Shown here in pieces: positions 1 to 33,043 of a stretch of 33,043 bases of DNA. The position numbers and the translations under genes are program-made. Numbering within the stretch: the stretch's first letter is position 1; each line of letters starts with the position of its first letter. This DNA is from Lachnospiraceae bacterium. Its GTDB lineage: Bacteria > Bacillota > Clostridia > Lachnospirales > Lachnospiraceae. The stretch spans positions 1 to 33,043 of the forward strand of contig CAJTDK010000029.1 of assembly GCA_910575105.1 (NCBI GenBank), given 5' to 3'. Below the pieces are notes generated by a model. That model was not told where the DNA came from and searched no databases. It saw only the letters and a list, made by a program, of their open reading frames with translations.

Positions 1-1041
1 GGTGCAGATATGCAGTTGCCCTGTCAAGCGGTACTGCTGCCCTGCATCTGGCTGTCCGTCTGGCGGGGGAAAGGCTGTACGGCCAGACAGAGACAGGAAA
101 AGGAGCGCTTTGCGGGCATAAGGTGTTCTGTTCGGATATGACATTTTCGGCAACCTTAAATCCGGTCGTCTATGAAGGCGGGGTGCCGGTGTTCATCGAT
201 ACGGAATACGATTCCTGGAATATGGATCCGGCAGCGCTTGAGAAAGCTTTTGCGCTGTACCCGGATGTGCGGCTGATCGTTGTGGCGCACCTTTACGGGA
301 CGCCCGGGAAGATCGATGAGATCAAAGCCATCGCAAAAAGATATGATGCACTTATCGTAGAGGATGCCGCGGAGAGCCTGGGAGCTGCATATAAGGGACA
401 GCAGACAGGGACATTCGGGGATTACGGGTGTATTTCATTTAATGGGAATAAGATCATCACCGGAAGCTCCGGGGGATGTTTTTTGACGGATGATCTGGCG
501 GATGCCAATAAGGTCAGGAAATGGAGTACCCAGTCCCGGGAGAATGCGGCGTGGTACCAGCATGAAGAGATCGGGTTTAACTACCGGATGTCTAATGTGA
601 TCGCTGGTGTAATCAGAGGTCAGATTCCGTATCTTGAGGAGCATATAGCGCAGAAGAAGGCGATATATGAGCGGTATAAAGAGGGGTTACGGGGTCTGCC
701 GGTGAGGATGAATCCTATCCCTGAAGGGTGTGAGCCTAATTACTGGCTGAGCTGTATGACCATTGACCCGGAAGCAATGTGCAGGCAGGTGCGCGGGGAA
801 TGCGAAGCGCTGTATGTACCTGAGCGTGGGAAGAGTTGTCCGACGGAGATCCTGGAGGCTTTGGTCTCGGTCAATGCAGAGGGGCGCCCGATCTGGAAGC
901 CGATGCATATGCAGCCTGTGTACCGGATGAATGGGTTTGTTACCAGGAATGGGAATGGCCGGGCAGGGAGTGATGCTTATATTGGAGGCGGAGTATTGGG
1001 GAAGGATGGTAAGTTGTTGGATGTGGGGATGGATATCTTTC
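1..1041 (+). repeat. Long inverted repeat, left arm
   Basis: This stretch is the reverse complement of 32003-33043, with position i pairing with 33044-i. Aligning the two arms by eye I count about 14 mismatches (at 111, 270, 281, 377, 550, 566, 608, 612, 620, 624, 626, 647, 659 and 825), so roughly 98.7% identity. Nine of them fall between 550 and 659. Uninterrupted identical blocks reach about 216 bp (826-1041). Identity stops abruptly after 1041, inside the last codons of the aminotransferase. The outer limit is not visible because identity still holds at the window edge. The arm has no transposase or terminal inverted repeat of its own, so it is a duplicated gene and not an IS. Confidence 0.97.
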
Positions 1042-1130
1042 GTAGAGGGGTGTGTTTGCCTAGTGATAATAAGATGAGTATGGAACAGCAAGAGATCATT
1101 ATTAAAATGATTAGGGCTTGTTTTAACTAA
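1..1130 (+). CDS. DegT/DnrJ/EryC1-family sugar aminotransferase, PglE-like (5' end outside window)
   Basis: PLP-dependent aminotransferase acting on a nucleotide-linked 4-keto-6-deoxy sugar. The frame is open to the left edge, where the in-window N-terminal part reads SSGTAALHLAVRLAG, the usual cofactor-phosphate loop of this family. The real start is therefore upstream; a GTG at 123 is internal. The Schiff-base lysine is the K of SFNGNKIITGSSGG (codon at 450-452), and EDAAESLGAAY precedes it. The NGNKII form is typical of PglE-type UDP-4-keto-sugar aminotransferases making 4-amino precursors of bacillosamine-like sugars; the exact substrate is inferred. It is followed by a PglC-like priming transferase, as expected if its product is the first sugar of the repeat unit. 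GC content is clearly higher than in the AT-rich genes that follow. The last ~27 residues differ from the copy at the other end of the window. Confidence 0.9.
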   Translation, partial: CRYAVALSSGTAALHLAVRLAGERLYGQTETGKGALCGHKVFCSDMTFSATLNPVVYEGGVPVFIDTEYDSWNMDPAALEKAFALYPDVRLIVVAHLYGTPGKIDEIKAIAKRYDALIVEDAAESLGAAYKGQQTGTFGDYGCISFNGNKIITGSSGGCFLTDDLADANKVRKWSTQSRENAAWYQHEEIGFNYRMSNVIAGVIRGQIPYLEEHIAQKKAIYERYKEGLRGLPVRMNPIPEGCEPNYWLSCMTIDPEAMCRQVRGECEALYVPERGKSCPTEILEALVSVNAEGRPIWKPMHMQPVYRMNGFVTRNGNGRAGSDAYIGGGVLGKDGKLLDVGMDIFRRGVCLPSDNKMSMEQQEIIIKMIRACFN

Positions 1131-1176
1131 ATAACCTATATGGAATTCGGAACAGACATGGGAAAGAATTGCAACT

Positions 1177-2862
1177 ATGAAAAAAGTGATAAAAACATTT
1201 TTTAAAATATCAATTATTGCTACCACTATTATAGCTTATGTAATGAAAAAGGAAGCGAAAAAAACTACATATCAAGTCAAATCAATAGACACTGTAGAAT
1301 TTCGTAAAATAAACTTTTATGAAAAATATGTAAAACGTATATTTGATATTGCTTGTGCTGTGGGGGCGATTGTCTGTTTTAGTCCTCTATATATAATTAT
1401 TGCTTTAACAGTACGCTTAAAGCTTGGTAGTCCCGTTTTGTTTACACAGAGTCGACCAGGACTTATTGGCAAAGACGGTAAAGAAACTATATTTAAAATG
1501 TATAAGTTTCGTACTATGACTGATGATAGAGATGAAAATGGCGTATTACTTCCAGATGAAGCCAGATTAACAAAATTTGGTGCATGGCTGCGCGCTACTT
1601 CTTTGGATGAATTACCAGAGGCATTTAATATTCTGAATGGAACAATGTCTGTAATTGGTCCCAGACCACAATTGGTTCGTGATATGACGTTTATGACAAA
1701 GGAGCAAAGAAAACGTCATACAGCTAAGCCTGGATTAAGTGGATTAGCTCAGATTAATGGACGTAATGCTATTACTTGGGATGATAAACTGGATTGGGAT
1801 TTAGAATATATAAAGAAAGTTAATTTTTTTAGTGATTTAAAATTAATATTAAATACCATTTTAAAGGCGTTTATTGAAAAAGAAGGTATTACTGATGATA
1901 ATATGGTGACTGCTGAAGATTTAGGTGACTATCTTTTGAGAACAAATAAAGTAAGCCAGGAAGAATATGTGTATAAGCAAAAACAGGCTCAAAATATACT
2001 TTTGGGTAATGAGTCATCAGATGATGATTTAGAAGAGATTAAAAAAGTTGCTATAAATAAGAAATATAGTGTTTTGATGAGTTTATATAGAAAAGAAAAA
2101 CCTGAACACTTACGCCTTTCTTTGGATAGCATGATTAATCAGTCTGCTGCCCCAGATGAGATTATTCTTGTCGAAGACGGTCCTCTTACGGATGAATTAT
2201 ATGACGTTCTTGATGAATATGATAAGTATCTTCATAGAGTAAAGAATAAGAAGAATCTGGGACTTGGTTTAGCACTTAATGTGGGACTGAAGGAATGCCA
2301 TAATGAGTTAATTGCCCGCATGGATACAGACGACTGTTCAAAACCTAACCGTTGTGAAAAGCAGCTTAAACGTTTTGAAGAGAAACCTTATTTATCTATT
2401 GTTGGGACTCATATAGACGAGTTTGTTGGGGGCATTTCCAATATAGTTTCACAAAGAAAAGTACCTGTTACATCAGAAGACATCTATGAATTTGGAAAAA
2501 GACGATCTGCATTTAATCATCCTACTGTCATGTATAAAAAAAGCAAAGTGATGGAACAAGGCGGTTATGCAAACCTTAAACGGAATCAAGATGTTGATCT
2601 TTTTGGGCGAATGCTTTTTGCTGGTAATAAAGCAGAAAATATTGATGAAGCACTTCTTTGGTTTAGAAGTTCAAATGAACTTTCAAAAAGAAGAAAGAGT
2701 TGGCAGAATACATGGAGCTATATTGCAACAATAAGAAAATTTTGGAAGATGGGTTATTCGTCATTTGTAGATTACATAATAGTCGGATTTGCTCAGATGG
2801 TGATGTATGTAATGCCCATAAAGGTGCAAAATTTTATTTATACTAAGCTATTACGAAGATAA
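1177..2862 (+). CDS. Priming phosphoglycosyl transferase (PglC-like) fused to a GT2 glycosyltransferase
   Basis: Two-domain protein of 561 residues. Residues ~48-235 are a bacterial sugar transferase (PF02397 type): one re-entrant hydrophobic helix (FSPLYIIIAL), then KMYKFRTMTDD, the catalytic Asp-Glu pair in ATSLDELPE (D144/E145), SVIGPRPQL and KPGLSGLAQINGRN. This part would move a phospho-sugar from UDP-sugar to undecaprenyl phosphate at the membrane. After a linker of about 60 residues, ~297-530 is a GT-A domain with LVEDGP, the metal-binding ARMDTDD (383-386) and QDVDLFGRM, likely adding the second sugar. A short hydrophobic tail ends it. The start at 1177 has a modest GGGAAAG site 12-15 bases upstream; Met23 is an alternative with no better site. 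It is first in the left cassette after the aminotransferase. The counterpart on the right side (31193-31885) lacks the GT2 domain. Confidence 0.9.
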   Translation: MKKVIKTFFKISIIATTIIAYVMKKEAKKTTYQVKSIDTVEFRKINFYEKYVKRIFDIACAVGAIVCFSPLYIIIALTVRLKLGSPVLFTQSRPGLIGKDGKETIFKMYKFRTMTDDRDENGVLLPDEARLTKFGAWLRATSLDELPEAFNILNGTMSVIGPRPQLVRDMTFMTKEQRKRHTAKPGLSGLAQINGRNAITWDDKLDWDLEYIKKVNFFSDLKLILNTILKAFIEKEGITDDNMVTAEDLGDYLLRTNKVSQEEYVYKQKQAQNILLGNESSDDDLEEIKKVAINKKYSVLMSLYRKEKPEHLRLSLDSMINQSAAPDEIILVEDGPLTDELYDVLDEYDKYLHRVKNKKNLGLGLALNVGLKECHNELIARMDTDDCSKPNRCEKQLKRFEEKPYLSIVGTHIDEFVGGISNIVSQRKVPVTSEDIYEFGKRRSAFNHPTVMYKKSKVMEQGGYANLKRNQDVDLFGRMLFAGNKAENIDEALLWFRSSNELSKRRKSWQNTWSYIATIRKFWKMGYSSFVDYIIVGFAQMVMYVMPIKVQNFIYTKLLRR

Positions 2863-2961: not shown

Positions 2962-4026
2962 ATGAAAGGTAATATGATATTTTACTCCTGTAAATATCAT
3001 ATTAAGTACATTATGATGACAGATAATGATATTACAATTAGTGTGATTGTTCCAGTATACAATGTAGAGAAGTATTTACATAGATGTGTAAATTCAATTC
3101 TTAATCAATCCTATAGCGATATTGAGATTATTCTCATTAACGATGGTTCGAAAGATAGCTGCCCAATGATTTGCGATCAATATGCAAAAGATTATAATAA
3201 TATTCACGTGATTCATAAAACAAACGGAGGGTTAAGTTCTGCCAGAAACTGTGGAATTGAAGTAGCACAAGGAGATTTTATTACTTTTGTTGATAGTGAT
3301 GATTGGATTGATTCGGAAACTTACACATATTGTATTAATCAAGTCAGGCTATTTAATGCTGATGCTATAGAATTTAATTATATTTCCGTAAATGACAGTG
3401 GAAAAGTTGTACCTTATTCACGGGAAAAAATAAATGTATACTATGGAAAAGATATTTTGCAATATTATATGGAATCTAGCACTAAAAATGGCAGTTATTC
3501 TGTATGTCGTATGTTGGTGAAAAAGAATATATTGAAAAATCTTAGATTTAGAGAAGGAAGAATTAATGAAGATATAGATTTCAAGTATAAAGTATTGAGC
3601 AGATGTAATAGTTGTGTAGTCACTAATCAAAAATTCTATTATTATTTCCAAAGTAGTAATAGTTTATCGACTGGTAAACTGTTAAAAAAGGATTTTGATC
3701 TTTTTGTAGCAGCAGATGAATTATGTAACCTGGCTCGGGATGAAACTTACGGTTCCATTAAAAAATTATCTTTCGTGAAAAAGGCAAGAACACCTTTTTC
3801 TTTATTGTGTAAAATTTCATATTTTGGAATTAGCAATGAATTTATCAATAAAAAAAATGTAATAAAGATATTAATGAGCAAACATAGAAAATATTTTAAA
3901 TATCTTATTTTAAGTCCAATGCCAAAAAATAGAAAGATATTATCATTGCTCTATTTTGTAAATTTTACAATAACTGATACATGTATAAAATTTGCAAAAA
4001 AATGTATAGAAGGCAGTAAACAATAA
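2962..4026 (+). CDS. GT2-family glycosyltransferase (EpsJ-like)
   Basis: Inverting GT-A glycosyltransferase for repeat-unit assembly on the cytoplasmic face. The start of the domain reads ISVIVPVYNVEKYLHRCVNS, with LINDGSKDS (nucleotide binding) and the metal-binding FVDSDDW. The GGLSSARNCGI stretch between them is typical of capsule/EPS GT2 enzymes. The C-terminal part is basic and weakly hydrophobic. The start is uncertain: the first ATG (2962) has no clear ribosome site, ATG 2974 has AAAGG only four bases away, and ATG 3013/3016 lies just before the domain. The 99-base gap before it contains TTGAAT-17-TATTTA (2910-2938), a weak promoter-like pair. Donor and acceptor sugars cannot be read from sequence. 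Confidence 0.88.
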   Translation: MKGNMIFYSCKYHIKYIMMTDNDITISVIVPVYNVEKYLHRCVNSILNQSYSDIEIILINDGSKDSCPMICDQYAKDYNNIHVIHKTNGGLSSARNCGIEVAQGDFITFVDSDDWIDSETYTYCINQVRLFNADAIEFNYISVNDSGKVVPYSREKINVYYGKDILQYYMESSTKNGSYSVCRMLVKKNILKNLRFREGRINEDIDFKYKVLSRCNSCVVTNQKFYYYFQSSNSLSTGKLLKKDFDLFVAADELCNLARDETYGSIKKLSFVKKARTPFSLLCKISYFGISNEFINKKNVIKILMSKHRKYFKYLILSPMPKNRKILSLLYFVNFTITDTCIKFAKKCIEGSKQ

Positions 4027-4081: not shown

Positions 4082-4566
4082 ATGAAAGAGTATATATTAA
4101 ATATACTAGAGAGTTTTGAATATCGGATAAACTTTAAAAAATATTGGAAAAGACGAATGGCTGTGCAGTCCTGTGGGGGGGGGTACGTAAGATATATTAT
4201 ATATTATGGCTCAGAAGGCAGGAAGCAAAATTTAGCGCAACAACCGGCATTGGATTGTCAACAGAAAAAAGTCCATGCTGCTATTTTAATGAGCCTGCTG
4301 TTATGCCTCATGGTCTTAGCGGTATTATAATTGCCAGAAATGTAATTTTTGTAGGCAAAGTTGTAATATATCAGCACGTGACTATTGCAGAGTCTAATAA
4401 AGAAAAATATACATATATCGGGGCTGGGGTTCAGATAGGAGCAGGTGCTGTTATATTGAATAACGTACATATTGGAAATAATGTAAAAATAGGAGCCAAC
4501 GCAGTTGTAACTCATGATATTCCGGATAATACTACAGTTGTTGGAGTCCCGGCAAGAATTGTTTGA
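4082..4566 (+). pseudogene. Serine-acetyltransferase-like O-acetyltransferase, frameshifted at a G9 tract (possibly phase-variable)
   Basis: An ATG with a good AAGGA site opens a frame reading MKEYILNILESFEYRINFKK, which runs into nine Gs at 4175-4183 and then gives no recognisable protein before stopping at 4330. The adjacent frame, open after the tract, reads IYYILWLRRQEAKFSATTGIG and continues into left-handed beta-helix hexapeptides (YIGAGVQIGAGAVILNNVHI) ending NTTVVGVPARIV, a CysE/LbH O-acetyltransferase of the kind that decorates glycans. With ten or seven Gs the two halves fuse cleanly into a protein of about 162 residues (for ten). The downstream part is otherwise undamaged, which favours a switch or a read error over old decay. 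It sits between a glycosyltransferase and the polymerase; the polymerase's ribosome site overlaps its end. Confidence 0.82.
4175..4183 (+). repeat. G9 homopolymer inside O-acetyltransferase gene
   Basis: Nine consecutive G residues, strikingly long for AT-rich surroundings. The tract sits exactly where the frame of the acetyltransferase breaks. Adding one G or losing two would restore a single frame. Such tracts change length by slipped-strand mispairing in contingency genes. A homopolymer sequencing error is the competing explanation. Confidence 0.9.
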
Positions 4567-4582: not shown

Positions 4583-5800
4583 ATGAAGATAAAGAAATTT
4601 CAGATAAAAAATTTATTTTTTATAGCACTTGCTGCGGTTTACTTTATTGAAAACAATCCGACAATTAAGGCTAATACGCATGTTCGGTATATATTTATTT
4701 TAATAATAGCAGGGTATGCTGTCTCAGAAATATTAATAAAAGGCAAACTAAAATTAAATACATTTTATATATGGACAGTGGCTGTTCTTTTCTTTTTTAC
4801 ATTGAGTTCCAGATGGAGTTTTAATACACAAGATTCATTTCAGAATGTAAAAAATATGCTTATTGTATACGTGATTTTATTGTCCATTATTACGGTTGTT
4901 AAAATGGAAAATGATTTTCTTTTGCTTTTAAAATATGTCGTTTGGGCATTTGTAGCGGACACTTTATATGTACTGATGGCGGTTGGGTTAAATGATTTGG
5001 GTGAAGGTCGTTTAGGTGCTGAATACTCTCAGCTAGAAGAGTGGAATGCGAATGCGATTGCTGGTTTTACTGCATGGGGTTGCATTATTGCAATATATTT
5101 GTTCCTAAATGCTAAGAGAAAAATTGAGAAAAGAAGATGGGGAATTATTGCATTGTTTTTCGCAGTGATGACAATGTACACAGGTTCCAGAAAAGGTATA
5201 ATCATTATAGTGGCTGTTCCGTTATGCTATAGCATTTACGCTTATAGGGGAAACAAAAAAATTCGCAACACGTATTTCGTGATACTTGCCATGGTAGTGG
5301 GATATATTTTGATCATGTATAACCAACAGATGTACGAATTGATCGGAGCCAGAATCGTAAGAATGATTCAGGAATTGCTTGGTCATAAAACATCTGAAAA
5401 CAGTATGAGTATAAGAATGCTGATGATTAGCAGCGGGTTTTTCTGGTTTTTGGAGCATCCTCTTTTAGGGTATGGGATTGGTCAGTATCACATATTATTA
5501 TCGCGCGCTATTGGATTAGATACATATTCCCATTGTAATTTTGTGGAAATACTTGTTGGCGGTGGCATAATAGGTTTTTTAATATATTACAGTATTTATA
5601 TAGAACTAATTATTCTATATATTAATAAAATATTAAAAACACAAAACAAAACAGTTGTTTATTTTTTCTTTATGCTGGTAATTTCTACAGTATTACATGC
5701 AGCATTGGTTTGTTATTCTGATTTGAATTACATTACAGTTCTGTTATTAGCTTATATAGTTGCAATGCAAAATATATCTGGAAATATATCCAAAAAGTAA
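4583..5800 (+). CDS. wzy: O-antigen/capsule polymerase, Wzy/O-antigen ligase family
   Basis: Polytopic membrane protein of 405 residues with about ten hydrophobic segments. It carries two features of the Wzy_C/O-antigen ligase superfamily: TGSRKG (around residue 200) just after a membrane segment, and a long non-cytoplasmic loop ending in YSHCNFVEILVGGGIIG (His about residue 317). It probably polymerises the undecaprenyl-linked repeat units outside the membrane after Wzx export. It is the only such protein in the left operon, and a Wzx lies further down, so this arm carries its own Wzx/Wzy pair. An AAAGGG site just after the preceding stop codon supports the ATG at 4583. A ligase role cannot be excluded, but polymerase is the usual assignment in this context. 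Confidence 0.82.
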   Translation: MKIKKFQIKNLFFIALAAVYFIENNPTIKANTHVRYIFILIIAGYAVSEILIKGKLKLNTFYIWTVAVLFFFTLSSRWSFNTQDSFQNVKNMLIVYVILLSIITVVKMENDFLLLLKYVVWAFVADTLYVLMAVGLNDLGEGRLGAEYSQLEEWNANAIAGFTAWGCIIAIYLFLNAKRKIEKRRWGIIALFFAVMTMYTGSRKGIIIIVAVPLCYSIYAYRGNKKIRNTYFVILAMVVGYILIMYNQQMYELIGARIVRMIQELLGHKTSENSMSIRMLMISSGFFWFLEHPLLGYGIGQYHILLSRAIGLDTYSHCNFVEILVGGGIIGFLIYYSIYIELIILYINKILKTQNKTVVYFFFMLVISTVLHAALVCYSDLNYITVLLLAYIVAMQNISGNISKK

Positions 5801-6938: not shown

Positions 6939-8039
6939 GTGGAACGTATATTACAAATTCCCGGAGGAATTCTGAACCGCAATAATGGAATAGCAACTTT
7001 TTTAATGAATATATACCGAAACATTAATCGGGACAAATTTCAATTCGATTTCATTGTCTTTACAGACGAAAAAGGTGAGTATGACGAAGAAATCATAAAA
7101 TTAGGAGGAAGGCTTTATCATGTGGAACGACCAGGGCGTAATCTAATAAAAAATATGACACAAACTTATAAGATTATGAAAGAAAATTCTTATCATATTA
7201 TGCACCGACATGCAGCAGACGCGCTATGCTGGCCAGATTTTTATTTAGCAAAAAAAGCGGGGATTAATCACCGCATCGTACATTCTCATGGAATACATAC
7301 AGTTAAGACAAAAATGCATAGATTTTTTTATCCTTTAATGATTGCAAATATCACAAATCGGGTTGCCTGTAGCAAGCTAGCAGGTTTGTGGTTATATCAT
7401 GATAATTTAGATTTTTATGTGATTAAAAACGGAATACAAACATCAAGATTTCTGTTCTCAGAAAAACAGCGCATAGAACAAAGAAAAGAACTTCAAATAT
7501 CAGATAATACATTGGTACTTGGTAATGTAGGCCGGTTAGCAAATCCCAAAAATCCACTCATGACAGTAAAAGTATTTGCGGCTTTAGAAAAAAAATATCC
7601 TAACAGCAAATTAATTATGTTAGGAGAAGGCGATTTAAGAGATGTGGTTGAAGCTCTAATTAACCAACTGAATGTTCAAGACAAGGTATTTCTTCCTGGA
7701 GTAACTAGTGAGGTGGCAAAATGGATGTGTGCAATGGATGTAGGAATATATCCGTCCGAATTTGAAGGCTTTCCCTTTTCCGTAATAGAAAGTGAAGCAA
7801 ATGGTCTGCCAATAATTATGTCTAATCGTATTACCAATGAGATAGATGTCTTAGGATCTATAGTATCCTTATCTTTAGATAGTTCCCCTGATATATGGGC
7901 GGAAGAGATATTACGCTTATATCAGAAAGATAATCCACTGTCTCGTGGTGAATATGCTGAAATCATCTTTCAAGCGGGATATGATATAAAAAATACGGTA
8001 AAGGATTTGGAAAACTATTATGAAAAGTTGCTGCCATAA
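6939..8039 (+). CDS. GT4-family glycosyltransferase (EpsF/CapM-like)
   Basis: GT-B enzyme of 366 residues. It begins ERILQIPGGILNRNNGIATF, as in EpsF-like capsule transferases. The second Rossmann domain has LGNVGRLANPKNPLMTVKVF and the donor-binding FEGFPFSVIESEANGLP. It starts at GTG, and the choice is secure because a very strong AGGGAGGAGG site lies 6-8 bases upstream; there is no closer ATG. It ends overlapping the next gene by 20 bases, implying translational coupling. Probably one of the middle glycosyltransferases of the left repeat unit; specificity not deducible. Confidence 0.9.
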   Translation: MERILQIPGGILNRNNGIATFLMNIYRNINRDKFQFDFIVFTDEKGEYDEEIIKLGGRLYHVERPGRNLIKNMTQTYKIMKENSYHIMHRHAADALCWPDFYLAKKAGINHRIVHSHGIHTVKTKMHRFFYPLMIANITNRVACSKLAGLWLYHDNLDFYVIKNGIQTSRFLFSEKQRIEQRKELQISDNTLVLGNVGRLANPKNPLMTVKVFAALEKKYPNSKLIMLGEGDLRDVVEALINQLNVQDKVFLPGVTSEVAKWMCAMDVGIYPSEFEGFPFSVIESEANGLPIIMSNRITNEIDVLGSIVSLSLDSSPDIWAEEILRLYQKDNPLSRGEYAEIIFQAGYDIKNTVKDLENYYEKLLP

Positions 8040-8967
8040 TGGGTATCAGAAAAATATCTCAAAAAAAATAAAAAGGTTATTCCTGGATTCTGATTATCGC
8101 TTTCAGGTGCTTGCAACCCGAGGTTTTTATAATCATATGGATGATCGAAAGTATCTCAAAAAAACGTTTAAATATATTATGGAATATGAATTAGATCTTG
8201 ATAATCCTAAAACGTTCAATGAAAAAATTCAGTGGTTAAAGTTGTATGACCGTAAACCAAGGTATACTATGATGGTGGACAAATACGAGGTTCGAAAGTA
8301 TATCGCAGATAAAATTGGAAAAGAATATCTTATACCACTTCTTGGTGTGTGGGATACTCCAGATGAAATTGATTTTAACCTTCTACCGAATCAGTTTGTT
8401 TTAAAATGTAATCATAATTCAGGATTAGGAATGTGTATTTGCAAGGATAAAGCTACTTTGAATATTACAAAAGTAAAAAAAGAGTTACGAAAAGGATTAA
8501 AGCAGGATTTCTATTTGACAGGGCGCGAATGGCCATATAAGAATGTGAATAGAAGGATTATTGCAGAAAAATATATGGAGAATGAAGTAACACATGAATT
8601 AATGGATTACAAATTCTTCTGTTTTAATGGGCAAGTTGAGTTTTTTAAAATAGATTTTAATAGGTTTATTAATCATCAGGCAAATTACTATTCAATTGAT
8701 GGAGCTTTACTTCCTTTCGGTGAACAAGTGTGTCCACCTGATTTTGAAAAAAAGTTATTAATGCCGTTTAATTTAAAGAAAATGATCGAATTGGCAGGGG
8801 TATTATCAAAAGGAATTCCATTTATCCGCGTAGATTTTTATGAAGTACAAAAAAGAGTTTATTTTGGTGAATTGACTTTTTATCCAGCCTCAGGTATGGG
8901 AAAATTTATTCCTAATGAAATTGATATGCAATTAGGGAAAAAGATAAATATACTGAAACAATCATAG
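8020..8967 (+). CDS. TupA-like ATP-grasp protein
   Basis: A 315-residue protein resembling TupA-like ATP-grasp enzymes found in polysaccharide loci. The family's N-terminal signature is visible as NPKTFNEKIQWLKLYDRKPRYT followed by DKYEVRKYI. Central pieces include FVLKCNHNSGLGM (nucleotide-binding loop), IIAEKYMEN and MDYKFFCFNGQVEF; the C-terminal part has FIRVDFYE and FGELTFYPASGMG, which hold the metal-binding acidic residues of the fold. TupA was first linked to teichuronopeptide synthesis, so joining an amino acid or peptide to a sugar carboxylate is plausible; the substrate here is unknown. The start overlaps the previous gene by 20 bases. A 376-base gap follows it, the longest break in this operon. 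Confidence 0.85.
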   Translation: MKSCCHNGYQKNISKKIKRLFLDSDYRFQVLATRGFYNHMDDRKYLKKTFKYIMEYELDLDNPKTFNEKIQWLKLYDRKPRYTMMVDKYEVRKYIADKIGKEYLIPLLGVWDTPDEIDFNLLPNQFVLKCNHNSGLGMCICKDKATLNITKVKKELRKGLKQDFYLTGREWPYKNVNRRIIAEKYMENEVTHELMDYKFFCFNGQVEFFKIDFNRFINHQANYYSIDGALLPFGEQVCPPDFEKKLLMPFNLKKMIELAGVLSKGIPFIRVDFYEVQKRVYFGELTFYPASGMGKFIPNEIDMQLGKKINILKQS

Positions 8968-9343: not shown

Positions 9344-10417
9344 ATGAATTCAAGAATAATAAAAGAGAATAAAGCTATTAAGTTTTTTGTTATAGTACCA
9401 GTTTATAAAACTGAGAAATATATTCAAGAATGTATTGATTCGGTATTAAATCAAACATACCAAAATTTCAAGTTGATTCTTGTTGATGATGGGTCGCCTG
9501 ATAATTCAGGGAATATTTGTGAGCAATATGCCGTTATGGATTCTCGAATTATTGTTATTCATCAGAAAAATATGGGTTCGATTGCAGCTAGGCAAGCTGC
9601 TATAAAATTTATTAAAGGATTAATTGATTTCGATGACACATTTATTGTCTTCTTAGATTCAGATGATTCTTTAAAAGAAAAAGCATTAGAAAAAATATAT
9701 CAGAGTATACAGAAATATGACTGTGACATGGTTATTTATGGGATGGAGCGTGTACTAAAAGGAGAAGTTATTGTACCATATGATTCCCAAAATGGATATT
9801 CAGGTTTAATAGAGGATAAAAATGTATTATATAATCTGGTATTTAATAATTGTGAATTCAATTCTCTTTGTAGAAAAGCGATATCGGCATTGTTAATTAG
9901 TGATATGGATTATAGAGATTATTATCATCTTTCTTATGGTGAGGATTTATTGCAGAGCATTACATATTATAAAAATAGCAAAAATGTATATATCTTAAAT
10001 GAAAGTTTGTATAATTATACCTTTAATCCAGATAGTTTAACAAATACTATATCTGAAAAAAATTTTGAGGTTGATTTTACTATTAGAAAGATGGTATATG
10101 AATTTTTACAAAAAGAAAATATTTTTACTCCTAATGACTGGAAACGATATAGAAGTTATTGTGTTGTACTTTTGGTTGAGAGGATAAAAATAATTTTGCA
10201 ACTTCAAATTGACAAAACAAAAAAGTATTCTTATTTTGAAGAAATTTATAATTCGGATTATTTTCAAAATTATATTAGAGGACAAGAATATGAAAGGAAA
10301 AGACTTGGTAAGAAAGCATTAGTCTATTTTCTTTTTAAAAAAAAATTATATTTGTTAATAATAATAGTTTATAAATTTTATAAAAATATAAGTAAACGTC
10401 ATGAAAAATCTAACTGA
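9344..10417 (+). CDS. GT2-family glycosyltransferase
   Basis: GT-A enzyme of 357 residues: FFVIVPVYKTEKYIQECIDS at the start, LVDDGSPDNSG, the variant GSIAARQAA where most relatives have GLSxARN, and the metal-binding FLDSDDS. The tail is hydrophobic then basic (YLLIIIVYKFYKNISKRH), suggesting membrane association. AGAGGA upstream fits the ATG at 9344. Its last 17 bases overlap the flippase gene. It follows the debris-like gap, so it may be a later addition to the operon. Confidence 0.88.
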   Translation: MNSRIIKENKAIKFFVIVPVYKTEKYIQECIDSVLNQTYQNFKLILVDDGSPDNSGNICEQYAVMDSRIIVIHQKNMGSIAARQAAIKFIKGLIDFDDTFIVFLDSDDSLKEKALEKIYQSIQKYDCDMVIYGMERVLKGEVIVPYDSQNGYSGLIEDKNVLYNLVFNNCEFNSLCRKAISALLISDMDYRDYYHLSYGEDLLQSITYYKNSKNVYILNESLYNYTFNPDSLTNTISEKNFEVDFTIRKMVYEFLQKENIFTPNDWKRYRSYCVVLLVERIKIILQLQIDKTKKYSYFEEIYNSDYFQNYIRGQEYERKRLGKKALVYFLFKKKLYLLIIIVYKFYKNISKRHEKSN

Positions 10418-11924
10418 TACACGGGAAAAAAGAGCAAAATTTAATATTATGTGTTCTCTAATAGGTCAATTAGTAACACTTTTATGCGGGTTGATTATTC
10501 CACAGTTAATGATTAAAAGATTTGGATCGGAAGCATATGGAGCTACTACTTCTATATCTCAATTTATGGCATATATCAGTTTGCTAGAAGGCGGTATTGG
10601 TGGTGTTGCGAGAGCTGCACTATATAAACCGCTTGCAGATAATAATATACATGTAATTAGTGAAATCCTTGCGGAAATCAAGAATTTTTTTAGAATTGTC
10701 GCTTACATTTTTATTATATATGTAATAATTTTATCGTGCACATTTAAGACAATTTCTCATATAGAATGTATGGACTGGTTTAGCACATTTTTGCTTGTGA
10801 TTGTCATTAGTTTATCGACATTTGCACAGTATTTTGTTGGGATTTCATATTCTGTACTTATTCAAGCTGCACAAAGAACTTATATTATGAGTCTTATTTC
10901 AATTTCAACAGTTGTGCTAAATACTATTTTTGTTATTATACTTGTTGATTTTGGGAGCAACTTGACCATTGTTAAATTTGTAAGTAGTTGTGTTTTTGTT
11001 TTGCGCCCGTTCTTGATGTGTATTTATGTCAGGAGAGAATTCAGTCTAGTTAAGTGTAATAAAAGTAATAAAACCTATTTAAGTCAAAAATGGTCAGGTT
11101 TAGGTCAGCACATTGCTTTCTTTTTATATTCTAATACGGATATTGCAATACTTACAATTTTCGCAGATTTAAGAATGGTAGCAGTATATTCAGTTTACTA
11201 TATGGTTGTTTCTCAAATTGAAAATTTAATTGCATCTTTTTCATCAGGAATGGAAGCAGTTTTTGGTGATATGCTAGTCAAAAATGAAATGGAAGAATTA
11301 CATAAAACATTTAATTATTACGAAATTATGATTTCCGTTATTTCTACGATTCTTTTTTCGGTAACAGCAGTATTAATTGTTCCTTTTGTTAGAATATACA
11401 CAGAGAATGTTAGCGATACAAATTATATAGCGCCTACATTCTCGTTATTATTAATTCTATCATCATATGTAGCATGTTTGAGAAAACCTTATCATAATTT
11501 GATAATTGCTGCGGGTCATTTCAAGCAAACACAAATTGCTGCATACGGAGAAGCAATTATTAATATAGGGTTGTCTGTAGTACTTGTTATTTATTTCGGG
11601 CTGATTGGTGTAGCAATTGGTACCTTGGTTGCAACAACTTTTCGATTGTTGTATTATGCTTTTTATTTATCTACTCATATCTTTAATCGCAGAATTATTT
11701 TTTTTATTAGATGTGAAATAAAAAATACAACTATTTTCGTTCTTGTATATATTATCGGTAAAATGATTAGCAATTTGGTGGATTTAAAAGATTATGTTAT
11801 ATGGGCAAAATGCGGCGTTATAATGACATTAATTGCAATTTTGATAACTATTATTGGTAATTTCACATTTTATAAATATGATTTAAAAGTCATATTAACA
11901 AAACAGATGATAAACAAATTATAA
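10401..11924 (+). CDS. wzx: Wzx-type polysaccharide flippase
   Basis: Integral membrane protein of 507 residues with about 12-14 hydrophobic segments, matching the MATE/MOP polysaccharide exporters that flip undecaprenyl-linked repeat units. The N-terminal part has the usual charged first helix then LIIPQLMIKRFGSEAYGATT and YISLLEGGIGGVARAALYKP. The C-terminal end has alternating hydrophobic helices and short basic loops. No good ribosome site precedes ATG 10401; the 17-base overlap with the GT2 gene suggests coupled translation. It is the last gene of the left operon. The other flippase in the window (20949-22493) is only distantly similar in feel, so each cassette appears to have its own. 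Confidence 0.88.
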   Translation: MKNLTDTREKRAKFNIMCSLIGQLVTLLCGLIIPQLMIKRFGSEAYGATTSISQFMAYISLLEGGIGGVARAALYKPLADNNIHVISEILAEIKNFFRIVAYIFIIYVIILSCTFKTISHIECMDWFSTFLLVIVISLSTFAQYFVGISYSVLIQAAQRTYIMSLISISTVVLNTIFVIILVDFGSNLTIVKFVSSCVFVLRPFLMCIYVRREFSLVKCNKSNKTYLSQKWSGLGQHIAFFLYSNTDIAILTIFADLRMVAVYSVYYMVVSQIENLIASFSSGMEAVFGDMLVKNEMEELHKTFNYYEIMISVISTILFSVTAVLIVPFVRIYTENVSDTNYIAPTFSLLLILSSYVACLRKPYHNLIIAAGHFKQTQIAAYGEAIINIGLSVVLVIYFGLIGVAIGTLVATTFRLLYYAFYLSTHIFNRRIIFFIRCEIKNTTIFVLVYIIGKMISNLVDLKDYVIWAKCGVIMTLIAILITIIGNFTFYKYDLKVILTKQMINKL

Positions 11925-20348: not shown

Positions 20349-20368
20349 TTTGAAATTCCTTTCCTATA

Positions 20369-20944
20369 TTATTTTTCTCCAACTGGAAAAATTTCACCTT
20401 TTTCATTAGCTTTATATTTAGAATTGCATGAGGTGCAATACAAATTTTTGTCTAATTTACGACCGCATTTACATACATGCGCATAAAATTTTGCGGGATT
20501 ACCCACGACCATTGTGTAATCTGGAACATCACTAGTTATAACTGATCCGGCTCCTATAAAAGCATATTTTCCGATATTATTTCCACAAACAATTGTAGCA
20601 TTTGCTCCAATAGTAGCCCCCTCTTTAATTAGGGTACCTTTAAATTCAGACTTTCTTTCAATAAAGCTACGTGGATTGGAAACATTAGTAAAGACTGCAT
20701 TCGGACCTATAAAAACATTATTCTCACATTTAAATCCTGTATAAAGTGCAACATTATTTTTCACTTTAACGTTATCACCCAAAACTACCCCTGTTTCTAT
20801 AAATGCATTTTCTCCGATATTACAATTTTTTCCGATTTGTACGCCTTTCATAATATGACACCAATGCCAAACACGAGTATTTCGCCCAATGGAACTCGTT
20901 TCGTCAATTAATGCTGTAGGATGTGCAAAATAGTTTTTATTCAT
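20369..20944 (-). CDS. wbpD: WbpD/WlbB-like nucleotide-sugar N-acetyltransferase
   Basis: Left-handed beta-helix acetyltransferase of 191 residues. It opens YFAHPTALIDETSSIGRNTR and WHWCHIMKGVQIGKNCNIGE, the near-invariant start of WbpD-type enzymes, then hexapeptide repeats through GANATIVCGNNIGKYAFIGA to MVVGNPAKF. The tail has CKCGRKL...CTSC, a zinc-ribbon-like extension seen in many relatives. It would acetylate the 3-amino group of the UDP-glucuronate derivative made by the WbpB/WbpE pair. AAGGAGA seven bases ahead confirms ATG 20944, four bases after the flippase stop. Confidence 0.92.
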   Translation of the reverse strand: MNKNYFAHPTALIDETSSIGRNTRVWHWCHIMKGVQIGKNCNIGENAFIETGVVLGDNVKVKNNVALYTGFKCENNVFIGPNAVFTNVSNPRSFIERKSEFKGTLIKEGATIGANATIVCGNNIGKYAFIGAGSVITSDVPDYTMVVGNPAKFYAHVCKCGRKLDKNLYCTSCNSKYKANEKGEIFPVGEK

Positions 20945-20948: not shown

Positions 20949-22493
20949 TTATCTCCTTAATACTTTGTATATATTTTGTTTAATTAAATCAATAAAATAT
21001 GTATATTCGCTTGCCTGTTTATATAAAATGCAGAGGAAAAGATTTATAGTTATAAGGCATATAAATAATTTGGAAAAAAAACCACACCACCCGCCAATCA
21101 GTATTATTTTATTAAGCAACAAATAATTAATAATTGTACCCCCAAAAATGCTTAAAAAATACTTTGTAAATGTTAATAAATAATCTCGCCACTTCTTACC
21201 AAATTTTCTCTTATACAATAAATATGGTTCATACCAAAAATTAGTTGTAAAATTACTTATTAATGTCCCTAACAAAATTCCTACCACTCCCATTTTGAGC
21301 GGAACAACCAATATAAGAGATGCCACTAAGTTAATTATAGCTTCAGCAATACATTTCCACCGTATTTCCACAAACATTCCGTATGTATCTATATACATTA
21401 AAAATGTACTTCTAATTAGTCGCATATAAAGATTAAAGCAAATTAAAACTACAATTTTTATATCAAGAACATATTCCTCTCCTGCCCATAGCACAATAAA
21501 CGAATCAATGAGACAAAAAAGGCATGAACATGAAACTCCGGTTAGCCAAAAATTAACAAACCATATTTTTTTAAATGAATCGTATATAGTATCCCTAGAT
21601 TCAGTAACAATAATATTTCCAACACTTCCTATTAGTGATTCGAATATTTTGACAAATGTAGTACGCAACATTCCAATAAAGAGAGTATAATTCGAATAAA
21701 TTCCGAGTATTATTGTACTTACAAATTTTGAAATTAGTAAATTGTCTGTTGACGTTACAATTGCAGAACTAACTTTACTAGCAATCATTGCTTTTATATT
21801 GATAAATATTGAGTTTTTAGTTTCGTCATCAATTCTCTCATTTTTATATTCTTTTAAAAAACCATAGTGAATATCAACATATAAGGACACTAATATGTTA
21901 TTCAAAACAGTACCTAACAATTGAATACTCAAAAATATAATGTAATTAGATAAACACACAAGAACGATGACTTGAATTACGTTTTGTAATACAGTAACTA
22001 AAATAAATAGCAATGAGACAATATATGATTTTTGATTAACAATTAGTATGCTTTTTTTATATACGAAAAAGTAGCTTGCTGTAGTATTCAATAAAAATAA
22101 TATATATATTAAAGGTAATTCTGTGATATTCGGAATACCAGAAATAAATAAACTCAAAAAAGGAATGAGCATTAATCCTATGATAGTTAAAGTGGTTCCA
22201 ATAATTCTATAGATTTTTTTATAAAAATTCAAAAGTGACATAAGCTTTCCATAGTCACCGTATGCGGCTGGCTTATACATTGAATATGTAATTGCTGTTC
22301 CGACACCCAATTCTCCTAACGATAATAACGTAAGAATATCACTAAATAAACCATTAAACCCTAAATATAATTTACCTAAAGTATAAATAAAAACTGTTCG
22401 AGTCAAAAATGACAAACTACTATAAATAATTTGTTCAATTATTGCAAATATTGAATTTTTTACCATGGATTCAAATCTGTTTATATTTTGCAC
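20949..22493 (-). CDS. wzx: Wzx-type polysaccharide flippase
   Basis: Polytopic protein of 514 residues, about 12-14 hydrophobic helices, in the MOP/MATE exporter family. Recognisable pieces are LGFNGLFSDILTLLSLGELG and VGTAITYSMYKPAAYGDYGK near the N-terminus and KMGVVGILLGTLISN late on. It would flip the right-hand repeat unit. GTG 22493 is the likely start, since AGAGGT sits seven bases upstream; an internal ATG ten codons in lacks a site. Located between a GT4 and wbpD. Confidence 0.88.
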   Translation of the reverse strand: MQNINRFESMVKNSIFAIIEQIIYSSLSFLTRTVFIYTLGKLYLGFNGLFSDILTLLSLGELGVGTAITYSMYKPAAYGDYGKLMSLLNFYKKIYRIIGTTLTIIGLMLIPFLSLFISGIPNITELPLIYILFLLNTTASYFFVYKKSILIVNQKSYIVSLLFILVTVLQNVIQVIVLVCLSNYIIFLSIQLLGTVLNNILVSLYVDIHYGFLKEYKNERIDDETKNSIFINIKAMIASKVSSAIVTSTDNLLISKFVSTIILGIYSNYTLFIGMLRTTFVKIFESLIGSVGNIIVTESRDTIYDSFKKIWFVNFWLTGVSCSCLFCLIDSFIVLWAGEEYVLDIKIVVLICFNLYMRLIRSTFLMYIDTYGMFVEIRWKCIAEAIINLVASLILVVPLKMGVVGILLGTLISNFTTNFWYEPYLLYKRKFGKKWRDYLLTFTKYFLSIFGGTIINYLLLNKIILIGGWCGFFSKLFICLITINLFLCILYKQASEYTYFIDLIKQNIYKVLRR

Positions 22494-22533: not shown

Positions 22534-23769
22534 TTATTTATTTTGCATTTTCTTTACATTTATTTCTAATTTTTCATAAAATTTTTTATAATTTATCTGT
22601 GAACTGAATTTTTCTTCCCATGTATTTCTTGCCTGAAAGCGTTTATCACGAATATCATTATTACACAATGTATAATATTGTCTAATAGCGTTAATTATTT
22701 CTACGTGAGCCGTTTCTTTATTTATGAGCCATCCGTTTGTATTATTTACAATTTCTGATGTTCCACCTACATCAGTTGCAATCGCTGGAATACCAAATGA
22801 ATAAGCTTCCATGATTGAAACCGGAATCCCCTCGCTTAAGCTAGCATTGATAAAAATATCTACATGATTATTTGCATACCAATCAAAAATTTCCTTTTTT
22901 AATGTATATCCCTTTAATTCAATGGATAGATTCTTCTGTTTACTTTGATTAATAATACTTTTAACATTCTCCATTTGATTACCATCACCGAAATGAACCC
23001 AATGAATTGGTATATCTGTAATGTCGCAGAGCGCCTTACATATCAATGGTACTCTTTTTACTTCAATAATATTAGAACAAGACACAACTACAATTTTTTG
23101 TTTTTTTTCTTCAGGATTTAGACCATAATCATCAGTTCCTAGTCGTGAAATAAATATCTTTTCTTTTGCGTAAGGATATCTTTTTTTTATGTAATTAAAA
23201 CCATCTTCCGAAATAGAAATAATACTATTTAATCGATTATAAATATATTGTTTATAAGGTAAATAATCATTAAAGTGCCAATATTCATATAAATCAACTC
23301 TATGTACTCGTGTTAATTTATATATATTTTCATTTTTTATTAATGCTATAGCTAAAGATGAGATAGCCCCCCAATATGAGTACAAAACAATATTGTCAGT
23401 TATGTCTTGGCATAAGTCCTCAACATGACATCTGATCCTTTCAGATTCCAAAAGTACTGATATTGATCTTCTTAAAGTGACATAAGACAGTTTGTTTGCT
23501 TTACATAAAAAAAAGATTTCATTAGTCCATATCTTAATTAATTGACTTATATGCTTTAATCTGATTATTTTTCGGCTATATGAATTATTCATTTTATGCA
23601 AATTAATATTAGGATATTTACTGTAATCAAACATTAAAGCAGAATTATTCGTATCCATTGGAAATAAAATAATTTTATACTCATTTTTTGATGCTAATTT
23701 TATTTCCTCAATTAAAAATGGCTCTCCATTAATAAAGGGAAATCTATTCGTAAGCAAAATGATGGTCAT
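22534..23769 (-). CDS. GT4-family glycosyltransferase
   Basis: GT-B enzyme of about 411 residues. The start TIILLTNRFPFINGEPFLIE resembles a class of capsule GT4 proteins whose N-terminal loop reads GEPFLxxEI. The donor half has SCSNIIEVKRVPLICKAL, HFGDGNQME and ASLSEGIPVSIMEAYSFGIP followed by ATDVGGTSEIV. I prefer ATG 23769 with GAGGAGG about 12 bases before it; a GTG at 23796 would put the ribosome site inside the gene. A ~110-base AT-rich gap separates it from the polymerase. Substrate unknown. Confidence 0.88.
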   Translation of the reverse strand: MTIILLTNRFPFINGEPFLIEEIKLASKNEYKIILFPMDTNNSALMFDYSKYPNINLHKMNNSYSRKIIRLKHISQLIKIWTNEIFFLCKANKLSYVTLRRSISVLLESERIRCHVEDLCQDITDNIVLYSYWGAISSLAIALIKNENIYKLTRVHRVDLYEYWHFNDYLPYKQYIYNRLNSIISISEDGFNYIKKRYPYAKEKIFISRLGTDDYGLNPEEKKQKIVVVSCSNIIEVKRVPLICKALCDITDIPIHWVHFGDGNQMENVKSIINQSKQKNLSIELKGYTLKKEIFDWYANNHVDIFINASLSEGIPVSIMEAYSFGIPAIATDVGGTSEIVNNTNGWLINKETAHVEIINAIRQYYTLCNNDIRDKRFQARNTWEEKFSSQINYKKFYEKLEINVKKMQNK

Positions 23770-23879
23770 TCTTAGATAAATCCTCCTCAAATTCACTTGA
23801 TATATCCTAGTTCTGTAATATTAAGCTATATTAGTAATTATTATGTTGTTAAGCACTTCTTTTTAATACCAGCCACTTT

Positions 23880-30206: not shown

Positions 30207-31193
30207 TTATAGTTCATCAAATCGCCCAAGTTCTAATTCCTTTTTATAATCAAGAAGAAAGCTTTTATAGTCGTATTGTGGTTTATAGCCTAACTCCTTA
30301 ATAGCAGGATTTATATCCATAATGTACTCGCCTGTATTCGGCATATCCGATAAAAATGATATCTTTGATTTTTTTTCGCCACCAAGAATATTTGCCATAA
30401 TTTTTATCTGATCTTCAAGTGATGTCCCTACTCCTGTTCCCACATTGTAAAAGCCTTCATTTCGATCGACTTTTATGCCAAGAAATAACAATTGAGCAAA
30501 ATCTTTCACATAAACCATATCTTTTACTTTAGTCGGATCTCCCCAAATCTCCATATCTTCTCCAGCTATTGCCTTATCAATTAAAACTCGATACCACAAT
30601 GTACTCCTTTTTCCATCGCGATAGAAATAACGCTCTTTTGCATAAAGATAAATCGTAGGTAATCTGAAAATAAATTTTTTAAGTCCATAATGCTGATGAT
30701 AATACTCAATTAAGTCTACTGCAGCACATTTTGCAATCAAATATACTGTATGGTCAGAATTATATGAAAATGTTCTGGGCATATTCACTGTCAAAGTTGG
30801 ATAATTAGACGCATGAGGTAATATATCACCAAAACTTTGCGCAAAAAGAATTCTGTCAGCTTTGACTTCAACACAATAATTTAATATATTTACTGTTCCC
30901 ATAAGATTTACATTTAGCATTTTATCTATATAATCGCCATCACTTCTTGCTGGCATATACCCAGCCAAATCTACAACCGCATATACACTTTCTCTTGGAA
31001 GCTTAAAAAAATCATTTTTTTCAACAATATTCATTGAAATATATGAAATGTGAAAATATTTCTCAAAAAATGTAGTTTTCCGATTTCCTACAGCAATAAT
31101 TTCATATTCACGATTCACATCGTGCTCAAGAAAGTAATCAATAAAATACCTTCCTGTTTCACCAGATGCTCCAAAAACAATAACTTTTTTCAT
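30207..31193 (-). CDS. NAD-dependent sugar epimerase/dehydratase (extended SDR)
   Basis: 328 residues. NAD-binding VFGASGETGRYF (Gly loop at 8-14), VVDLAGYMP in place of the usual HLAA, and active-site Tyr151-x3-Lys155 in VYLIAKCA. Further on come FRLPTIY, WGDPTKVKDMVYVKDFAQLL and GFYNVGTGVGTSLEDQI, as in GalE/RmlB-like epimerases. Substrate unknown; it may act on the sugar used by the neighbouring priming transferase. ATG overlaps the stop of the previous gene (TAATG), indicating coupling. Confidence 0.87.
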   Translation of the reverse strand: MKKVIVFGASGETGRYFIDYFLEHDVNREYEIIAVGNRKTTFFEKYFHISYISMNIVEKNDFFKLPRESVYAVVDLAGYMPARSDGDYIDKMLNVNLMGTVNILNYCVEVKADRILFAQSFGDILPHASNYPTLTVNMPRTFSYNSDHTVYLIAKCAAVDLIEYYHQHYGLKKFIFRLPTIYLYAKERYFYRDGKRSTLWYRVLIDKAIAGEDMEIWGDPTKVKDMVYVKDFAQLLFLGIKVDRNEGFYNVGTGVGTSLEDQIKIMANILGGEKKSKISFLSDMPNTGEYIMDINPAIKELGYKPQYDYKSFLLDYKKELELGRFDEL

Positions 31194-31885
31194 TAATAAT
31201 TTTTCCTTTCTACATTTAAGGGTTTTGGATATTTATGTTTAACTCCATTTACATCAACAAACAAATTACCACTTTCATCAGAATAGATTTGTGTTCTATC
31301 AACTACACCTGATCGTAAAAACACTATTTTTAACGTACTGATAATAATTTTTAAATCTCTCATAAATGTGATTTTATTAACATATGATAAATCAAACAAA
31401 AATCTTTCTTCCCAAGATGTATAATTTCTGCCATGAATCTGTGATAAACCAGTCAATCCAGGACGTATATCATGACGACTTTTTTCTTTTTCTGTATAAT
31501 AAGGAAGATAACATACCAATAATGGCCTAGGGCCAACAATGGACATATCACCTTTAATAATGTTTATCAACTCTGGCAACTCATCTAAAGATGTAGCACG
31601 AAGAACTTTTCCTAATTTCGTTAATCTGACATTATCAGGAAGAAGTTCTCCCTTTTCATTTCTTTCATCTGTCATGGTTCTAAATTTATATAACTTAAAA
31701 ATCTTTTCGTTTTTCCCTGGACGCTCTTGTTTGAATATAATAGGTGTGCCAAGATTAATTCTTACAAGGATAGCTACTATTATATAAAGCCAAAAAAGGC
31801 AAATTATAGCTAATAGGGAAATCAGAAAATCCATAGGTCGTTTTATAAAAGCTTCATAGATTCCATATGGTTTATGTTTTTTCAT
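31193..31885 (-). CDS. Priming phosphoglycosyl transferase (PglC-like)
   Basis: 230 residues, the single-domain form. A re-entrant hydrophobic helix at 17-42, then FKQERPGKNEKIFKLYKFRT, the catalytic pair D101/E102 in ATSLDELPELIN, IVGPRPLL and RPGLTGLSQIHGRN. It transfers a phospho-sugar to undecaprenyl phosphate and so starts the right-hand repeat unit. Likely substrate: the 4-amino-sugar derivative produced via the adjacent PglE-like aminotransferase after acetylation. It is similar in its motifs to the first half of the fused protein at 1177-2862. AGGGG precedes ATG 31885, 28 bases after the aminotransferase stop. Confidence 0.93.
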   Translation of the reverse strand: MKKHKPYGIYEAFIKRPMDFLISLLAIICLFWLYIIVAILVRINLGTPIIFKQERPGKNEKIFKLYKFRTMTDERNEKGELLPDNVRLTKLGKVLRATSLDELPELINIIKGDMSIVGPRPLLVCYLPYYTEKEKSRHDIRPGLTGLSQIHGRNYTSWEERFLFDLSYVNKITFMRDLKIIISTLKIVFLRSGVVDRTQIYSDESGNLFVDVNGVKHKYPKPLNVERKNY

Positions 31886-31913
31886 TTTTTGCCCCTATAT
31901 TTATACAAATAAA

Positions 31914-33043
31914 TTATTTGAAACAATTCCTAATCATTTTAATAACCTTCCCTTGTTGCTCAATTGTCATCTTGTTATCAGATGGAAGACATAATCCCCG
32001 CTGAAAGATATCCATCCCCACATCCAACAACTTACCATCCTTCCCCAATACTCCGCCTCCAATATAAGCATCACTCCCTGCCCGGCCATTCCCATTCCTG
32101 GTAACAAACCCATTCATCCGGTACACAGGCTGCATATGCATCGGCTTCCAGATCGGGCGCCCCTCTGCATTGACCGAGACCAAAGCCTCCAGGATCTCCG
32201 TCGGACAACTCTTCCCACTCTCAGGTACATACAGCGCTTCGCATTCCCCGCGCACCTGCCTGCACATTGCTTCCGGGTCAATGGTCATACAGCTCAGCCA
32301 GTAATTAGGCTCACACCCTTCAGGGATAGGATTCATCCTCACCGGCAGACCCCGTAACCCCTCTTTATACCGCTCATATATCGCTTTCTTCTGCGCCATA
32401 TGCTCCTCAAGATACGGGAGCTGTCCTCTGACTACGCCAGCGATCACATTAGACATCCGGTAGTTAAACCCGATCTCCTCATGCTGGTACCACACCGCAT
32501 TCTCCCGGGACTGGGTACTCCATTTCCTGACCTTATTGGCATCCGCCAGATCATCCGTCAAAAAACATCCCCCGGAGCTTCCGGTGATGATCTTATTCCC
32601 ATTAAATGAAATACACCCGTAATCCCCGAATGTCCCTGTCTGCTGTCCCTTATATGCAGCTCCCAGACTCTCCGCGGCATCCTCTACGATAAGTGCATCA
32701 TATCTTTTTGCGATGGCTTTGATCTCATCGATCTTCCCGGGCGTCCCGTAAAGGTGCGCCACGACGATCAGCCTCACATCCGGGTACAGCGCAAAAGCTT
32801 TCTCAAGCGCTGCCGGATCCATATTCCAGGAATCGTATTCCGTATCGATGAACACCGGCACCCCGCCTTCATAGACGACCGGATTTAAGGTTGCCGAAAA
32901 TGTCATATCCGAACAGAACACCTTATGCCCGCTAAGCGCTCCTTTTCCTGTCTCTGTCTGGCCGTACAGCCTTTCCCCCGCCAGACGGACAGCCAGATGC
33001 AGGGCAGCAGTACCGCTTGACAGGGCAACTGCATATCTGCACC
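31914..33043 (-). CDS. DegT-family sugar aminotransferase, PglE-like (5' end outside window)
   Basis: Second copy of the gene at the left end, nearly identical and facing it. The frame is open at the right edge and the true start lies beyond. The PLP lysine is in FNGNKIITGSSGG (codon 32592-32594). Protein differences from the left copy are few: for example Ser for Cys near the edge, Val for Ala in RENAVWYQ, Leu/Met in GQLPYLEEHM, and Ser for Arg in VPESGKS. The last ~27 residues diverge strongly (FQRGLCLPSDNKMTIEQQ here; FRRGVCLPSDNKMSMEQQ there). It heads the right-hand operon, followed by the PglC-like transferase. High GC relative to the operon. Confidence 0.9.
   Translation of the reverse strand, partial: CRYAVALSSGTAALHLAVRLAGERLYGQTETGKGALSGHKVFCSDMTFSATLNPVVYEGGVPVFIDTEYDSWNMDPAALEKAFALYPDVRLIVVAHLYGTPGKIDEIKAIAKRYDALIVEDAAESLGAAYKGQQTGTFGDYGCISFNGNKIITGSSGGCFLTDDLADANKVRKWSTQSRENAVWYQHEEIGFNYRMSNVIAGVVRGQLPYLEEHMAQKKAIYERYKEGLRGLPVRMNPIPEGCEPNYWLSCMTIDPEAMCRQVRGECEALYVPESGKSCPTEILEALVSVNAEGRPIWKPMHMQPVYRMNGFVTRNGNGRAGSDAYIGGGVLGKDGKLLDVGMDIFQRGLCLPSDNKMTIEQQGKVIKMIRNCFK
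32003..33043 (-). repeat. Long inverted repeat, right arm
   Basis: Inverted partner of 1-1041. Identity reaches the window edge, so the repeat may continue beyond. Its inner edge is sharp, within the aminotransferase C-terminus. Arms this long and similar are ample substrate for RecA-mediated exchange, which would invert the DNA between them. Confidence 0.97.

Follow-up and report, generated by a model that had tools for sequence, protein, structure and literature searches.

The window analysed here, 33,043 nucleotides (nt) long, is the entire contig C29 (CAJTDK010000029.1) of an 86-contig, 4.24 Mb draft genome of a Lachnospiraceae bacterium (GCA_910575105.1), and carries what may be the interior of an invertible capsule locus: two different glycan operons that face each other between inverted repeats. 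Under the search settings applied, a single inverted pair was detected in the window: its arms, at 1-1141 and 31903-33043, are 96% complementary and lie 30761 nt apart; over bases 1-1041 they differ by 14 mismatches without a gap, and identity drops sharply from base 1042. The left arm (1..1041, + strand) and the right arm (32003..33043, - strand) each hold the 3' part, and indeed most, of a DegT/DnrJ/EryC1 aminotransferase gene (Pfam on the left copy) that reads inward and has its 5' end beyond the contig. The final ~29 codons of each gene are, as judged from the pattern of mismatches, specific to the cassette that follows (1042..1130, + strand, for cassette A; 31914..32002, - strand, for cassette B). 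GC content is ~53% in the arms versus 26-36% over most of the cassettes, with 41-48% at the distal end of cassette B. Inverted repeats flanking a variable segment, the arrangement expected of an inversion-type phase-variable locus, are therefore present. An earlier sequence-only reading of the window had proposed near-identical inverted repeats of ~1.04 kb, each leading into a different glycan operon, with the two operons converging on insertion sequence (IS) debris, and on these points it was right.

Operon A spans 1177-11924 on the + strand. It opens with a fusion of an initiating sugar transferase (Bac_transf) and a family 2 glycosyltransferase (1177..2862) and continues with a family 2 glycosyltransferase (2962..4026), a hexapeptide acyltransferase-like gene (4144..4566), a Wzy_C (O-antigen ligase family) membrane protein that is probably the polymerase (4583..5800; no NCBIfam match), two PF00534 glycosyltransferases (5760-6905 and 6939-8039), a TupA-like ATP-grasp protein (8020..8967) and a family 2 glycosyltransferase (9344..10417), all from Pfam matches. 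The last gene (10401..11924) probably encodes a Wzx flippase of 507 amino acids, to judge from its size, hydrophobic look and position, although no Pfam or NCBIfam family matched it.

Operon B runs from 31885 to 14576 on the - strand. Pfam matches identify an initiating sugar transferase (Bac_transf, 31193..31885), an NAD-dependent epimerase (30207-31193), a FemAB/GNAT-like transferase (29136-30188), glycosyltransferases at 27863-29077 and 25282-26403, a Wzy polymerase (PF14296, 23880..25346), a further glycosyltransferase (22534..23796) and, at 18076..20944, a GFO/IDH oxidoreductase, a DegT aminotransferase and a hexapeptide acyltransferase. The gene at 26482-27780 is a probable glycosyltransferase with a weak NCBIfam match and no Pfam match, and that at 20949..22493 is a Wzx-like flippase on a weak score (28 bits for WZX_like, whose cut-off is 300). 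At the distal end (14576..18073) lie an FnlA-like 4,6-dehydratase/5-epimerase (17009-18073), a WecB-like 2-epimerase (15790-16968) and a WbcJ-type reductase (14576-15808), a trio that probably forms a UDP-L-FucNAc pathway, each of the three profile matches falling below its NCBIfam equivalog cut-off. Both cassettes thus have a Bac_transf sugar transferase, glycosyltransferases and a Wzy-type protein, and Wzx matches are absent in A or far below cut-off in B. Between the converging operons are IS110 transposase fragments (12534..13408, - strand, Pfam), within a region (11900-14600) that is single copy in the assembly save for one 53-bp match at 85%.

The ends of the window are not the ends of the repeat. 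The two ends of C29 are identical for 110 bases and first differ at base 111, as is expected where an assembly graph breaks inside a repeat. The window genome also has two near-identical copies of a CapD/PglF-like dehydratase gene, both of which extend to the last base of a contig (C4:312734 and C11:136826), and the tails of these contigs are likewise identical for 110 bp and differ at 111; compared over their length they show 21 mismatches in 2049 gap-free bp, after which similarity stops. That the dehydratase is the gene upstream of the aminotransferase can be read in L032, a 3589-bp contig labelled uncultured Lachnospiraceae, which was the closest relative returned from the collection and has the same sequence as contig C101 of G004, a congeneric genome. 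By the length of L032, ~511 bases would be absent between the C4 and C11 tails and the C29 ends, and a search of the window genome with L032 found no contig carrying them. Each arm would then be ~3.6 kb long (2049 + 511 + 1041), part of it extrapolated. The sequence-only reading had two facing aminotransferase genes with their 5' ends outside; the genes do face each other, but what it took for the outside is an assembly break within a longer repeat.

Searches of the window genome found arm-like DNA nowhere besides the ends of C4, C11 and C29, except for a 68% paralogue inside C17. Since the free ends in these searches are those of C4, C11 and both ends of C29, the path that fits is C4-arm-C29-arm-C11, with C29 in either orientation and with the path and the missing piece both reconstructed. 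The C17 aminotransferase was considered as an additional arm and set aside as a separate paralogue (68% DNA identity) with its own sugar transferase downstream; at this locus (L003, G000:C17:53153-54406) the gene is followed by the apparent sugar transferase and an acetyltransferase, both labelled by eye.

What lies beyond the two arms is different on each side. On the C4 side (stretch L131), and proceeding toward the arm, there are a CpsB/CapC phosphatase, a LytR-CpsA-Psr (LCP) protein, Wzz, the tyrosine autokinase CpsD and a BspA-type leucine-rich repeat (LRR) protein; the CpsB, LCP, Wzz and CpsD genes at L131:10429-13876 make up a head of the Wzx/Wzy capsule type, the link from it to the window being through the inferred repeat. 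On the C11 side (stretch L132) the order toward the arm is a serine recombinase, a VanZ-like gene on the opposite strand, a UDP-glucose dehydrogenase with a helix-turn-helix domain, a nucleotide-sugar epimerase and a hairpin, and Wzz, kinase and LCP genes are absent from this flank as read (Pfam on selected genes). The sequence-only reading had suggested that a 4,6-dehydratase, an acetyltransferase and a Wzz/kinase be looked for in the flanks, and two of these are present: Wzz/CpsD kinase and a dehydratase on the C4 side, and on the C11 side a dehydratase together with UDP-sugar genes. Farther upstream of the CpsB head, L131:4565-7111 encodes an 848-aa protein with weak, below-cut-off matches to NB-ARC/STAND NTPases, possibly a defence gene. 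Recombinase genes occur upstream of this head in three genomes (L131:8058-9704, by Pfam; L144:5470-7326 and L157:2548-4407, by serine recombinase similarity), and their differing surroundings suggest an integration hotspot.

The same two heads are found in G004. There, the opening 55 bp of the repeat contig C101 recur without a mismatch where C57 ends and where C74 begins. Five genes of C57 are orthologous to the CpsB head (76-97% amino-acid identity) and nine of C74 to the C11 flank (71-97%), with gene order kept throughout. Upstream of CpsB the two genomes are unlike. The repeat has its outer edge at corresponding positions in the two species, and a 15-nt element shared by them without change lies 18 bp from it. 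Because both heads and the same outer edge are present in G004, it looks simplest to suppose that the duplicated, two-headed state predates the species split. At fourfold-degenerate sites, on the other hand, the two arms of the window genome diverge from each other by 0.037 in the dehydratase (10/280) and 0.019 in the aminotransferase (3/160), as against 0.49-0.68 between these arms and the sister arm, so that the arms have recombined since the split and the pattern is one of concerted evolution. Eight of nine flank genes fall at 0.46-0.86; the ninth is the LRR gene that ends the CpsB head (L131:13896-14552, L144:14787-15443), at 0.096, for which codon bias and recent exchange are candidate causes.

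Apart from the window genome and G004, four other members of the genus served as outgroups and were searched for the head markers at cut-offs of 1e-100 and 1e-20: neither marker was present in G001, the UDP-sugar epimerase alone in G002 and G003 (with one 73% aminotransferase in G002 too), and in G005 the CpsB head alone, truncated by the end of a contig. In a survey of 396 sampled genomes of the family (E <= 1e-130 to the arm aminotransferase, no more than four candidates being scored in each), 80 had a match, 11 of these had two or more and 4 had two on one contig, counts that are underestimates because repeats collapse in assembly, G004 itself giving a single match. In two of those four genomes, the window genome and G041, the copies are on opposite strands, and in G041 they are ~2.86 Mb apart. 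Relatives in which the aminotransferases have the same orientation are found at G385:C1:2216561-2238988 (starts ~21 kb apart) and G224:C53:124651-134116 (~8 kb); these are possible direct-repeat capsule arrangements, in which recombination would lead to deletion instead of inversion.

When inverted repeats on the same replicon exchange sequence, they do so by gene conversion or by crossover, and a crossover inverts the interior. It is at this point that the architecture becomes a candidate switch. Each repeat consists of a leader, the CapD/PglF-like dehydratase gene and most of the DegT aminotransferase gene, and the two would be kept alike by homologous recombination, as the concerted evolution suggests. 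A crossover between them would invert the ~31 kb of unique interior, or as much as ~38 kb when measured from one outer repeat edge to the other, and, as the known parts of the arms are gap-free, would leave both reading frames and both genes intact. Inversion would then swap the cassettes between the CpsB-LCP-Wzz-CpsD head and the UDP-sugar head, and the cassette behind the CpsB-Wzz head would probably be the one mainly expressed, the least certain step of the scheme. In our judgement it is about an even call whether the locus is a capsule locus of this kind, with a pair of heads that face each other and a pair of Wzx/Wzy cassettes that is inverted by crossover between the ~3.6 kb repeats. We are somewhat less confident of the broader proposal, in which such a two-headed invertible locus exists in two species of one genus and crossover makes complete operons trade places, one behind a regulated export head and the other behind a second one, providing heritable, reversible switching with no need of a dedicated promoter inversion. 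Of the two-cassette switch put forward in the sequence-only reading, then, the architecture and recombination between the arms are supported, and transcription from a single flank, the inversion event itself and the second orientation stand as predictions.

Several observations weigh against a crossover-driven switch. The second orientation was not seen in the sequences compared, which are one genome per species, and, with up to four candidates scored in each, no other sampled genome of the family has a nearby pair of aminotransferases on opposite strands. The arms could have been homogenised by gene conversion without crossover, and the 35 known differing sites between them indicate that homogenisation is not constant. 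The centre of the arm is free of single-nucleotide polymorphisms (SNPs) for ~731 bp, 511 bp of this being inferred from assembly collapse, and although such a tract would arise with P=0.013 if SNPs were placed uniformly, the test is weak, because the contig broke there precisely as it was the longest such tract. From the low divergence of the LRR gene it is clear that other routes, local exchange or codon bias, can also depress divergence at this locus. As for G004, its two-copy state was deduced from contig overlaps in a metagenome assembly, and its bin yielded no cassettes; two Bac_transf loci there (C31 and C24) were considered as the missing cassettes and rejected, as neither resembles a cassette joined to the repeat. 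The signals for transcription point both ways. The sequence-only reading had placed the promoters outside the window, where the window could not show them, and promoter-like sites in the flanks are at the level of shuffled sequence (11 found versus 10.2 expected in L131, 5 versus 5.4 in L132). A strong hairpin follows the LRR gene on the C4 side, where one terminator-like site is listed. In favour of the switch, on the C11 side, a terminator-like hairpin with a six-T run precedes the arm (61-nt stretch, -23.8 kcal/mol, z -5.9), and a similar hairpin is found at the same place in the sister genome, before the arm on the UDP-sugar side.

Within each arm, 5' of the dehydratase gene, there is in addition a leader (L131:14687-14903, L132:13779-13995, L032:1-223) that contains the shared 15-nt element and folds into a long hairpin (-40.0 kcal/mol, z -7.6; in the sister -32.4, z -4.5) whose T-run and stem ends are conserved between the window genome and the sister. 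It could be an antitermination leader of the capsule operon; Rfam gave nothing at gathering score in the window, L131, L132 or L032, the three matches on L131:10000-14920 (E up to 5) being far below gathering scores. With one such leader per arm both cassettes may be expressed, each driven from within its own arm, which is a further point against the switch and one in favour of its closest competitor: a static inverted duplication of leader, dehydratase and aminotransferase, made in an ancestor, which gave the locus room for two capsule cassettes and is maintained by gene conversion and purifying selection, with inversion rare or absent and two polysaccharides produced from two expressed cassettes. 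The dehydratase copies fit this picture, differing at 20 nucleotides and at 0/611 amino acids, and both proteins look constrained; so does the failure to find a second orientation. Yet inverted repeats of 3.6 kb in one replicon are expected, from what is established about recombination, to yield crossovers as well, and on the C11 side the second cassette would lie behind a flank that, as read, is without Wzz, kinase and LCP genes. We regard the static duplication as a real contender, if one with less than an even chance.

It is rather unlikely, though far from negligible, that the locus is in essence a cassette reservoir, in which the repeats are homology for importing low-GC cassettes at conserved upstream genes, as happens at other capsule loci, and inversion is a by-product. 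The mostly low GC of the cassettes relative to the arms, the sharp end of homology at 1042 within the aminotransferase tail and the IS110 debris between the cassettes are all consistent with such a history, which by itself leaves the two facing heads and the common outer edge in two species unexplained; it is compatible with crossover inversion rather than exclusive of it. Still less probable is site-specific inversion, in which the serine recombinase beside the C11 head would act on a putative short site at each outer repeat edge. A large serine recombinase gene does lie 5' of that head in both species (L132:7980-10016 by Pfam, L145:3658-5631 by similarity), and the outer edge is close to the identical 15-nt element. 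However, the recombinase could be a relic of a mobile element, the 15-nt element could be a signal in the RNA leader, and recombination at short sites requires no 3.6 kb of homology. The recombinase gene shows 73% identity between the species and faster amino-acid change than the other flank genes compared there. Finally, an assembly artefact, in which C29 was misjoined and the operons are not neighbours, would account for a draft assembly with contig ends in a repeat and transposase debris at its centre, and is very improbable given a central 2.7 kb that is single-copy apart from the weak 53-bp match, four contig ends that fit one another and a two-head arrangement that recurs in an independent assembly from the same genus.

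Inversion that changes an expressed surface structure has been described in other forms. In Moraxella bovis, a ~2 kb segment with two alternative pilin genes is inverted by a dedicated invertase so that either gene is joined to a fixed part outside, whereas here two operons lie between kilobase homology arms. In the sap locus of Campylobacter fetus, RecA-linked inversion of a promoter-bearing segment between homologous coding repeats changes the expressed S-layer gene; here capsule operons, not S-layer genes, would be exchanged. Among the open-licence PMC papers listed under the terms searched, judged by their titles and the openings of their abstracts, none described a capsule locus with two cassettes that inverts by way of coding repeats of kilobase length. 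Should the inversion proposed here be real, whole capsule types could be swapped by homologous recombination between long coding repeats, with a bearing on immune recognition and phage resistance, and such loci would form a class hidden by short-read assemblies, in which collapse of the repeat breaks the contig as it has in both genomes here. In Akkermansia, an invertible element adjoining one cps locus, cps1, switches it on and off (PMC13343947); this too is capsule phase variation by inversion, differing in that the promoter inverton, as described, exchanges no cassettes and has no long coding arms around a facing pair of them. The nearest parallel is with Eggerthella lenta, for which a preprint describes, from long-read assemblies, reversible inversions of capsule clusters, one of 2.06 Mb with 16-bp repeats and one of 32.5 kb with 39-bp repeats (PMC13174815, preprint 2026), and whose authors consider that longer inversions have probably been overlooked by earlier surveys. 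There, as would be the case here, large inversions move whole capsule clusters and change which are expressed; the differences are that the arms here are ~3.6 kb and mostly coding, that two facing cassettes share one segment, and that the inversion, seen in E. lenta, is for this locus a prediction. Capsule switching by large inversion is thus already known, and it is the form with long arms and two heads that, on condition that the inversion is real, looks to be new.

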